DNA of 64,000 nucleotides, from NCBI GenBank assembly GCA_902579605.1, contig CACHHD010000001.1:1-64000 (forward strand), given 5' to 3'. This stretch comes from an uncultured Pelagibacteraceae bacterium (lineage in GTDB: Bacteria; Pseudomonadota; Alphaproteobacteria; Pelagibacterales; Pelagibacteraceae). Below are positions 29,096 to 46,004 of this stretch, one piece after another. How positions within the stretch are numbered: the stretch's first letter is position 1; each line of letters begins with the position of its first letter. Position numbers and translations under genes: made by a program. The notes below the pieces were generated by a model that saw only the letters and a program-made list of their open reading frames with translations, was not told the DNA's origin and did no database searches.

Positions 29096-30115
29096 CTAAG
29101 CTTTTTGAATAACAACCTTATTATTTCTGCTTATAAGAGCGCACCCTCCAAGTTTATATTTCTTTTCTTTGTGTAAATCTAAGAAATTTAATGCAGTAAA
29201 AATTTTTTTGGACCTTGGAGGGTAATCTAATTTATTTACTTTTTTTATCAAAAATCCTAAAATTTTCAATTGCAGTTCAGAATTAAAAGAAAACAACACT
29301 TTCCTATCAATCATATACTTTTTGTTATGTCTCTTTACTGTCTTTTTAATAAGATCATTTATGTAAAGATTTAGCGTTTCACTTGATGATCTTAGATTAT
29401 CAATTGATTTAATTATTTGGTTTTCATTAATTCCAAATTTTTTTATTAGTGGTAAAAGGTTTCGAATTTTTGTTCTTAAATATCTTTTATTCTTATTGCT
29501 TGGATCTTTGATAAAAGAGCCAAATATCTTTTTTGCAATAAATATGAGTTCCTTTTTACTTATGTCTAATAGAGGTCTAAAAATTTTAGTATTAGTATTT
29601 AATGAGGATAATGTTCTCATGCCTGATAGTCCTTGAACTCCACTTCCTCTTGAAAGTCTAATTAAAAAAGTTTCGATCTGATCATCTTTATGATGTCCAG
29701 TCAAAATTAACTTAATTTTTTTTTTTTTACATTCTTGATTTAAAAGATCATACCTAACTTTTCTAGCGTTATGTTGTATATTGTTTAAAAATTTATTTTT
29801 ATTTTTAATAACCTTAAGTGAAATAAATTGTTTTTTAAGAAGATTTTGAACTCTTTTGGACTCATTTAAAGAATTTTTTCTTATTCCATGATTAATATGT
29901 ACGTAATAAAAAGTTTTTTTTTGGTTTTTTAATTGAAATACTTTACACATTGCTGCTAGTGCTAAACTATCAGCTCCTCCAGAGACAGCTACTAAAAATT
30001 TTTTAAATTTTAGTTTTGATATTTTTTTTTCAAAAACTAAATAAGAATTTAGTATTTTCTCAGATTTAGAGAAACATTTTTTATGATTTAGAACAATTGA
30101 ATTTTTTTTGCTCAT
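29096..30115 (-). CDS. tilS: tRNA(Ile)-lysidine synthase
   Basis: 339 aa. N-type ATP pyrophosphatase that adds lysine to C34 of tRNA-Ile(CAU), allowing AUA decoding. PP-loop AVSGGADSLAL at 43-53, HINHGIR, LTGHHKDDQIETFLIRLSRGSG, and a C-terminal domain. AUA codons are abundant in this AT-rich genome, so the enzyme should be heavily used. The start lies 35 bp inside cpoB; a later start would cut into the PP-loop region. Confidence 0.94.
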   Translation of the reverse strand: MSKKNSIVLNHKKCFSKSEKILNSYLVFEKKISKLKFKKFLVAVSGGADSLALAAMCKVFQLKNQKKTFYYVHINHGIRKNSLNESKRVQNLLKKQFISLKVIKNKNKFLNNIQHNARKVRYDLLNQECKKKKIKLILTGHHKDDQIETFLIRLSRGSGVQGLSGMRTLSSLNTNTKIFRPLLDISKKELIFIAKKIFGSFIKDPSNKNKRYLRTKIRNLLPLIKKFGINENQIIKSIDNLRSSSETLNLYINDLIKKTVKRHNKKYMIDRKVLFSFNSELQLKILGFLIKKVNKLDYPPRSKKIFTALNFLDLHKEKKYKLGGCALISRNNKVVIQKA

Positions 30116-31031
30116 ACTGAGCTTTTTGTAACACAGACTTACTCGCTTTTGGATATTGTTTTTTTATACCAGTTATCATTGTACATCCTTGTTCTTTTTC
30201 ACCAAGTTGAACCATTGTTATCCCTAGTTTAAGAAGATTGTCTGGTGCCTTATCACTTTTAGGATAGTTTTGATAACCATCCAGATAAGCCGTGGCAGCA
30301 TCAGAATATAACTGTCTTATTCTAAATGTCTCACCGTACCAATATTGTGCGCTTCCAGCTAAATCATGATCTTTATTTTTTTCTATAAACTCTTTTAATG
30401 CAAACTCAGCAGTTTCATAATCTCCAATTTTCATAAAGCTAATTGCAAAATCATATTGTTCTTTTGGGGACTTGTCAGGAAGTAGTGAAGATCTTTCAGT
30501 CTCAGAAGTAGCTACAGATGCAGTAGTACCTACAGAAATAGTTTCTTGTTTCTCCGGAAGTTCTTTAAGTGAATATCCTGGCGTTGCTCCAAAATCTTGG
30601 GGCTTGCTTGTTCCAGGAAGCTTTGCTTTTTTTTTATTGGTATTTGGTTTTATTTCACTATTTTCTAAATCAGAAAATCTTAACTGTGTATCAGATTGAA
30701 TCTTTGTTACCCTTGAAGACAATTTATCCATTTTAAAATTTATCTCCTCAAACTTGTTTGTAAGTGCTCTAAATTGTTCTTCAATTTCATTAAGGCGAAG
30801 AAGATGTTTAGTAAGAACATCTTCATTTAAATTATTTATGTTAGTAGTTTTACTTGTTTCTAAAATATCTGATTTTTTGTAAAACGCCTTTTCAAGGGTT
30901 TTCAAATCTTGATTAATAATTTGTATTTGGTCAATTACAGCTTCTATTCTTTCATCAGAGTACAAATTGTTTGTATTAAACATTAGTAATAAGATAAAAA
31001 AAATAGAAAATTTATTATTTTTAGTAATCAT
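30081..31031 (-). CDS. cpoB: Tol-Pal system protein CpoB (YbgF)
   Basis: About 316 aa. Periplasmic protein that links Tol-Pal to peptidoglycan synthesis in enterobacteria. Residues 1-23 make a signal peptide (FSIFFILLLMF), then a coiled coil (about 30-110), a Pro/Ser/Thr linker, and C-terminal TPR repeats (KEQYDFAISFMKIGDYETAE onward in similar units). The frame stays open to 31085, but that start would fall within the terminator hairpin, so ATG 31031 is preferred. Last gene of the tol cluster and overlapping tilS. Confidence 0.88.
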   Translation of the reverse strand: MITKNNKFSIFFILLLMFNTNNLYSDERIEAVIDQIQIINQDLKTLEKAFYKKSDILETSKTTNINNLNEDVLTKHLLRLNEIEEQFRALTNKFEEINFKMDKLSSRVTKIQSDTQLRFSDLENSEIKPNTNKKKAKLPGTSKPQDFGATPGYSLKELPEKQETISVGTTASVATSETERSSLLPDKSPKEQYDFAISFMKIGDYETAEFALKEFIEKNKDHDLAGSAQYWYGETFRIRQLYSDAATAYLDGYQNYPKSDKAPDNLLKLGITMVQLGEKEQGCTMITGIKKQYPKASKSVLQKAQYEQKKFNCSKS

Positions 31032-44824: not shown

Positions 44825-45427
44825 ATGCAAGAATATCCTTTTATGCCCAAAGCTACAGCTGTTTGGTTGGTAGAAAATACTAATTTAACATTTAAGCAAA
44901 TAGCAAAATTTTGTAACTTGCATGAACTAGAAGTTAAAGGAATAGCCGATGGTGATGTTGCAAAGGGTATTAAAGCATATAATCCGATTTTAGCGGGTCA
45001 ACTTTCTAGGGATGAAATTGATGAATGCTCTAAAGATCCAGAAAGAAATTTAAATCTTATAAAAAAAGACACTAACATTCAAATTAAAGAAAGAAAAAAA
45101 CCAAAATATACTCCATTATCAAAAAGACAAGACAGACCGGATGCAATACTTTGGTTATGTAAGAATGCTCCTGAATTAACAGATGGTCAAATTTCAAAGT
45201 TGGTAGGGAGTACTAAAGGGACTGTCTCTTTAATAAGAAAAAGAAGTTATTGGAATTTTTCAAACCTTAAACCCAGAGATCCTGTAATTTTAGCACTATG
45301 TTCACAGGAGTCATTTCAACTAGCGTGGGACAAGGCCAAAAGAAGGGTTGTAAGAGAAAAAAAAAGATTATTAAGAGAGGAAAAAAAGCTTAAAAAAGAA
45401 AAATCTGAAACAAAAGAAGTTGGATAA
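44825..45427 (+). CDS. DUF1013 family regulator (TrcR-like)
   Basis: 200 aa. Typical DUF1013 sequence: PFMPKATAVWLVENTNLTF, FCNLHELEVKGIADGDVA and a second helix-turn-helix-like unit (RPDAILWLCKNAPELTDGQISKLVGSTKGTV, seen in parts). The family is restricted to alphaproteobacteria; one member, TrcR, was named a cell-cycle transcriptional regulator. The C-terminal 40 residues are a Lys/Arg/Glu tail. No clear Shine-Dalgarno precedes it. Confidence 0.88.
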   Translation: MQEYPFMPKATAVWLVENTNLTFKQIAKFCNLHELEVKGIADGDVAKGIKAYNPILAGQLSRDEIDECSKDPERNLNLIKKDTNIQIKERKKPKYTPLSKRQDRPDAILWLCKNAPELTDGQISKLVGSTKGTVSLIRKRSYWNFSNLKPRDPVILALCSQESFQLAWDKAKRRVVREKKRLLREEKKLKKEKSETKEVG

Positions 45428-45465
45428 TTTAAGGAATTAACTAATAAGAAATATAGACAATTGTC

Positions 45466-45475
45466 CACTTAAGTG
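45466..45475. repeat. Perfect 10-bp palindrome upstream of rpsU
   Basis: CACTTAAGTG is a perfect inverted repeat 20 bases upstream of the rpsU ribosome site. It could be an operator or chance; no partner site was found. Confidence 0.3.
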
Positions 45476-45494
45476 CTAACTACCATCAAAAAAC

Positions 45495-45500
45495 AGGAGG
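45495..45500 (+). promoter_or_regulatory. Perfect Shine-Dalgarno that sets an AUU start for rpsU
   Basis: AGGAGG is fully complementary to the usual anti-Shine-Dalgarno and is followed by five Ts and then ATT at 45506. Five bases is ideal spacing. Neighbouring genes (efp, suhB, rpmE, trcR) have weak or no such site, so this one stands out. Confidence 0.8.
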
Positions 45501-45505
45501 TTTTT

Positions 45506-45700
45506 ATTAAAATAGAAGTTAAAGATAATAACGTTGAACAAGCTATAAGAGTTTTAAAAAGAAAACTTCAAAAAGAGGGTTTTTTTAAAGTAATGAAAAT
45601 GAAAAGTACCTATGAAAAACCATCTGAAAAGAAAAAAAGAATTAAGACTGAGAACTTAAAAAGAATAAAAAAACAACAAAAATTAAGAAATAGATACTAA
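45506..45700 (+). CDS. rpsU: 30S ribosomal protein S21, probable AUU start
   Basis: 64 aa if translated from ATT at 45506. Alignment with alphaproteobacterial S21 (M-x-V-x-V-x-DNNV) puts residue 1 exactly at this ATT: IKIEVKDNNVEQAIRVLKRK, then EGFFKVMK and YEKPSEKKKR. No ATG is available at this end. The only upstream in-frame start, GTG 45473, would add 11 residues that read through the AGGAGG site and has no ribosome site of its own. S21 sits by the anti-Shine-Dalgarno on the ribosome, so a strong site with a weak start suggests autoregulation. Confidence 0.88.
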   Translation: MKIEVKDNNVEQAIRVLKRKLQKEGFFKVMKMKSTYEKPSEKKKRIKTENLKRIKKQQKLRNRY

Positions 45701-45718: not shown

Positions 45719-45922
45719 ATGCCACAAGGTAAAGTTAAATGGTTTAGCGCTAAAAAAGGGTATGGGTTTATAAGAGAAGACAACAAAGAAAGAGATATTT
45801 TTTTACATATTTCAGAATTAGAAAATTCTAAACTAAGAGTGTTAAAAGAAAACCAGAGTTTAAAGTTTGATATAAAGGAAGATAAAGAAAAACTTCAAGC
45901 TATCAACCTCAAAAAAATTTAG
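45719..45922 (+). CDS. Cold-shock domain protein
   Basis: 67 aa single CSD. RNP1 KKGYGFIRED and RNP2 DIFLHISEL are both visible, with opening PQGKVKWFSAKKG. Binds single-stranded RNA/DNA and melts structure. A GAGGA lies six bases before the ATG. It is 18 bp after rpsU, and tRNA-fMet starts 5 bp after its stop. Confidence 0.94.
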   Translation: MPQGKVKWFSAKKGYGFIREDNKERDIFLHISELENSKLRVLKENQSLKFDIKEDKEKLQAINLKKI

Positions 45923-45927
45923 TCTAT

Positions 45928-45989
<62 letters not shown>

Positions 45990-46004
<15 letters not shown>

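Follow-up and report, generated by a model that had tools for sequence, protein, structure and literature searches.

Where does translation of rpsU, the gene for ribosomal protein bS21, begin in a Pelagibacteraceae genome in which its reading frame contains no ATG upstream of the conserved protein, and what might such a start do for the cell? Few genes are known to start with AUU, and rpsU appears to be one of them.

The start position of rpsU

The window, a stretch of 64,000 nucleotides, carries a 64-aa rpsU gene on its + strand (45506-45700, with the stop codon ending at 45700). Its identity was established in profile searches, in which it scored above the curated cut-offs of both TIGR00030 (57 bits vs a cut-off of 28.95, 1.3e-15) and PF01165 (58.2 bits vs 27, 6.6e-16). 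The reading frame extends 5' only as far as a GTG (45473-45475, + strand) directly after a TAA, and reads TAA GTG CTA ACT ACC ATC AAA AAA CAG GAG GTT TTT ATT AAA ATA GAA GTT AAA GAT AAT AAC. A preliminary description placed the start at the ATT (45506-45508, + strand), pointed to an AGGAGG 5 nt before it, and named the GTG as the only alternative. Each of these readings held: the AGGAGG occupies 45495-45500 with a TTTTT spacer, and the GTG is the sole in-frame canonical start in the window.

Evidence for the AUU start comes from conservation. Alignment of rpsU and its upstream region across Pelagibacterales, the check that the description had proposed, found an AUH codon (AUU, AUC, or AUA) together with a strong Shine-Dalgarno (SD) sequence in 113/119 Pelagibacteraceae loci and in 33/33 loci of the other (sister) family of the order. 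The 119 family loci, counted after removal of duplicates, have ATT (110), ATC (2), ATA (1), or ATG (6) at the start codon, and the sister-family loci have ATA (32) or ATC (1). Within the window's genus (n=27), ATT occurs in 25 loci, ATA in L018, and ATC in L025; the 80 named Pelagibacteraceae loci have ATT save for an ATC in L091. GTG or TTG was found at this codon in 0/119 family loci, and the 113 non-AUG loci vary only among AUU, AUC, and AUA. The six ATG variants, all in Pelagibacter, fall at exactly the same codon. In other words, the codon and its site are kept in nearly all relatives examined, with no usable AUG, GUG, or UUG and with AUU, AUA, or AUC at conserved residue 1, which is the sequence signature of an AUH-start gene.

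Could a canonical codon further upstream (the GTG at 45473 here, a TTG in Pelagibacter) be the true start, leaving the ATT as an internal isoleucine codon? Such an in-frame codon is present upstream in 56/119 loci; however, no in-frame ATG, GTG, or TTG exists there in the other 63/119. The TTG common to many Pelagibacter overlaps the SD and is replaced by CTG or TCG in five loci (L060, L063, L080, L090, and L106). In four others (L170, L171, L174, and L033), an in-frame stop codon lies between the SD and the ATT, 1-3 codons before the latter, so any start in these loci has to be non-canonical. The description had named one finding that would speak against the AUU, an ATG or GTG upstream in relatives along with a conserved N-terminal extension. 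This was sought and not found; some relatives have stops there instead. The GTG of the window is itself unconserved and lacks an SD (duplex energy 0.2).

The position of the GTG relative to the promoter argues against it as well. A -35-like motif of the TAGACA/TGGACA type sits 17 nt before a hexamer beginning with TA, which is preceded by the TG of an extended -10 element, in 119/119 distinct family loci. The predicted elements of the window are TAGACA (45454-45459, + strand) and the extended -10 element TGC-TAACTA (45474-45482, + strand), whose TGn recurs at this spacing in 119/119 loci. The GTG overlaps the conserved extended -10 element and falls inside the predicted promoter. An upstream canonical start is thus extremely improbable. 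The transcript would begin near 45489, giving rpsU a leader of ~17-18 nt. The leader showed no sign of structure (folding z 0.71), and a search of the locus for known RNA families gave no Rfam match except a tRNA.

Two further candidates were rejected. A sequencing or assembly error as the source of the ATT was ruled out, because the same codon is seen in single-contig genomes, in single-cell genomes, and in metagenome assemblies. Initiation at the third codon, ATA, would imply a spacing of 11 nt, and the ATG variants fall at codon 1. One Pelagibacter rpsU (L182, G150:C6) gave two overlapping partial matches with internal stops, and is for that reason taken to be frameshifted or mis-assembled. 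Taken together, rpsU of the window is almost certainly translated from AUU. Across Pelagibacterales, the comparison of loci shows a gene whose predicted start is AUU, or AUA in the sister family.

Shine-Dalgarno strength and the start codon

The SD of rpsU (AGGAGGT, 45495-45501, + strand) matches the 16S rRNA tail of its own genome (TGGATTACCTCCTTTCT, L470) over 7 nt. The tail was found to be GGATTACCTCC, not GGATCACCTCC, in 7/7 Pelagibacteraceae genomes matched (L466-L472). Pairing energies, calculated as ViennaRNA duplexes with an 11-nt 16S tail, gave -11.4 kcal/mol for rpsU vs -6.7 kcal/mol or weaker for 51 other conserved window genes tested, which bears out the earlier view of a weak start codon behind the locally strongest site. 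The mean pairing of these 51 genes was no better than that of mock windows. The conserved window genes besides rpsU start nearly all with ATG, and a few with GTG or TTG. When 208 and 263 ORFs were called in parts of two genomes (198 kb and 260 kb), the SD of rpsU again proved to be one of the strongest, with few coming near. Statements of genome-wide scope are based on these parts.

A search for other AUH-start genes covered 198 kb of this contig and 260 kb from a relative. The candidates that it gave besides rpsU were all short, antisense, or internal-looking, and were partly followed up. An AGGAGG-ATT (AGGAGGTTTTTTATT) at ~55.4 kb was rejected as a chance occurrence inside another coding sequence; hence the motif alone is no proof of the rpsU start, and conservation is. 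A second candidate, tilS (29096-30163), was set aside because the stretch conserved at its 5' side coincides in part with the end of the ybgF coding sequence.

An outstanding SD on rpsU has a precedent. In Flavobacterium johnsoniae, ribosomes lacking S21 favour the strong-SD rpsU, which amounts to autoregulation (PMC9976891). The same gene has an outstanding SD in SAR11, in a genome that is likewise SD-poor where examined, and this likeness favours a similar loop: 30S subunits without S21 would expose the anti-SD and prefer rpsU, with the AUU only making initiation wholly SD-dependent. The published loop, however, relies on a bS21-bS18-bS6 pocket peculiar to Bacteroidia, with Tyr54 of bS21, that hides the anti-SD, and the SD there extends over 9-13 bp vs 7 bp in SAR11, with no AUU start in the accessible text (PMC9976891). 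The SAR11 S21 aligns to 7jil over residues 3-44 only, so that such a pocket would be hypothetical in SAR11. The value of -11.4 kcal/mol (family-locus mean -11.3) also misses the -13 kcal/mol used in that report (PMC9976891), although the calculation differs. A loop of the Flavobacterium type is unlikely in SAR11.

Evidence on how codon and site are related comes from the six ATG loci. A GGAG, GAGG, or GGGG was present upstream of rpsU in 113/113 AUH loci vs 0/6 ATG loci, and the mean pairing energy was about -11.3 kcal/mol for the AUH loci of the family vs about +1 for the ATG loci (duplicates included). All six ATG loci group in a single clade (support 0.97) and so represent one event rather than six. 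As far as sequence can tell, this clade pins down the start position of rpsU and shows that codon and site offset one another: the consensus SD would compensate for the poor codon, and where AUG replaces AUU the site is gone.

Neighbouring genes and the class-wide survey

A TrcR-like gene, named a transcriptional cell cycle regulator, lies directly upstream of rpsU (44825-45427; PF06242, 3.2e-57). Downstream, rpsU (from 45506), a cspA-type cold shock gene (45719-45922, + strand, with an ATG start), and an initiator-type tRNA-Met (CAU) (45928-46004, + strand; ARAGORN, Rfam RF00005) stand in a row up to 46004. In Pelagibacter, the tRNA comes directly after rpsU. Initiator tRNAs typically carry three G-C pairs in the anticodon stem, as in E. 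coli fMet. The stem of the window tRNA, read by eye, is CAGG/CCTG, so one of these pairs is replaced by A-U.

Does the poor start couple S21 to the supply of initiator tRNA, whose gene is adjacent? In every family locus whose flanks are long enough, the tRNA-Met(CAU) stands either within ~10 nt after rpsU, as in Pelagibacter, or after cspA, as in the window's genus. However, it is absent beside rpsU in the sister family, which also uses AUA, and no tRNA-Met was found near rpsU in 29 loci of the class with flanks. Such coupling is accordingly improbable.

The weak rpsU start extends well beyond the order. In a survey of one genome per family of Alphaproteobacteria, 122 classified rpsU loci had GTG (57), ATG (23), TTG (18), ATC (11), ATA (7), CTG (4), or ATT (2). 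The start was thus non-AUG in 99/122 families, 20 of which have AUC, AUA, or AUU. For 8/24 AUH or CTG cases, no canonical start exists from the upstream stop to the conserved core; the other cases do have a canonical codon, either further 5' or among the first residues, and taken one at a time are less certain. Controls behaved differently. The gene for L27 has ATG in 30/30 loci of a chosen subset of the survey genomes, and rpsU outside Alphaproteobacteria has ATG in 20/21 readable Pseudomonadota loci. Fisher tests of rpsU in the class against these controls gave 1e-17 and 1e-11, values that ignore relatedness and the choice of the L27 subset. As an internal control, cspA beside rpsU starts with ATG wherever the gene was located. 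Among S21 genes of phages and viral contigs, those with a clear start site use ATG or TTG. The recurrence of a weak start across Alphaproteobacteria suggests that start-codon choice may help to set the amount of S21.

The main rival to a regulatory role is that a weak codon and a strong SD, under the gene's own promoter, balance to a constant S21 output that involves no feedback. Loss of the SD together with the codon change in the ATG clade is what would be expected if only combined strength were selected, and the weak codon of the class is most often a plain GTG. However, other window genes are set with neither a strong SD nor a near-cognate codon, and drift in the non-AUG family loci stays within the AUH codons, never reaching GUG or UUG. 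Fixed tuning of this kind is a serious alternative, though less likely than a regulatory role.

Possible control of S21 synthesis

How might an AUH codon behind a consensus SD regulate its gene? IF3 represses non-canonical starts, and infC, which encodes IF3 and starts with AUU in Escherichia coli and ATC in Streptomyces, is regulated in this manner, as is Streptomyces sigR with its GTC start (PMC5472188). The rpsU of SAR11 resembles infC in having a near-cognate AUH start on a translation gene, which IF3 would be expected to reject. It differs in that its product is S21, not IF3, and the gene could limit itself only if S21 influenced start selection. It resembles sigR in its non-canonical start, in a misleading GTG at the site, and in being missed by start-codon prediction (PMC5472188); unlike sigR, a stress sigma factor, it is a ribosomal protein gene with such starts over a whole order and weak starts over the class. 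Operon leaders with structured operators likewise control ribosomal proteins at the level of translation, whereas the rpsU leader is very short and unstructured.

One model is that the consensus SD on the short leader recruits the 30S subunit to the rpsU mRNA, where IF3 would reject AUU, AUA, or AUC, so that S21 synthesis would be held down while subunits are fully equipped. Synthesis would rise when subunits discriminate less, either because IF3 is limiting or because S21 itself is missing. Such a loop would act homeostatically, in the manner of infC. We take this infC-like account to be the best explanation of the rpsU start, with a probability of roughly 60%, and on the same reading the start codon is probably a regulatory gate.

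Observations on infC and the class bear on the gate from both sides. The infC start, read by eye in L306-L323, is AUA or AUC in the sister family, which thereby shares the device between infC and rpsU, and is AUU in genus g7. Within the order, AUH starts thus appear to occur on two translation genes, though the two do not always coincide. However, infC starts with GTG in the window's genus and in Pelagibacter, so the level of IF3 may not be set there as in E. coli. AUH codons are also infrequent elsewhere in the class, where the weak start of rpsU is mostly a plain GTG or TTG, codons that are tolerated by IF3.

A true feedback of S21 on its own gene is more doubtful. It is favoured indirectly, because conservation is restricted to AUH codons, because site and codon compensate for each other, and because AUG is avoided throughout the class. 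It is weakened because one Pelagibacter clade dropped the weak codon and the SD together, which indicates that regulation through AUU is dispensable in that clade. In E. coli, S21 reportedly helps SD pairing (PMC10931766), and this activity by itself would make feedback on an SD-dependent message positive rather than negative. A wider and still more tentative proposal is that, throughout Alphaproteobacteria, 30S subunits deficient in S21 or poor in IF3 accept AUU, AUA, or AUC (and GUG or UUG) on rpsU, while replete subunits do so less, and S21 stoichiometry would correct itself. If true, a ribosomal protein would here be running a loop of the infC kind, and phage-borne S21 genes would bypass it with AUG or UUG.

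A literature search, largely outside the subscription journals, found no report of AUU on rpsU or of a weak rpsU start across Alphaproteobacteria, which is no proof of novelty. One practical consequence of AUU and other weak starts is that the N-terminus of S21 is likely mis-annotated where software allows only ATG, GTG, and TTG. For the organisms, the comparison points to an AUU fixed in a ribosomal protein gene of SAR11, among the most abundant bacteria of the ocean, and to weak starts in most families of the class. It ties start-codon choice to S21, the sole ribosomal protein at the anti-Shine-Dalgarno and one that is carried by marine phages, and how the level of S21 is set becomes a simple reporter question.
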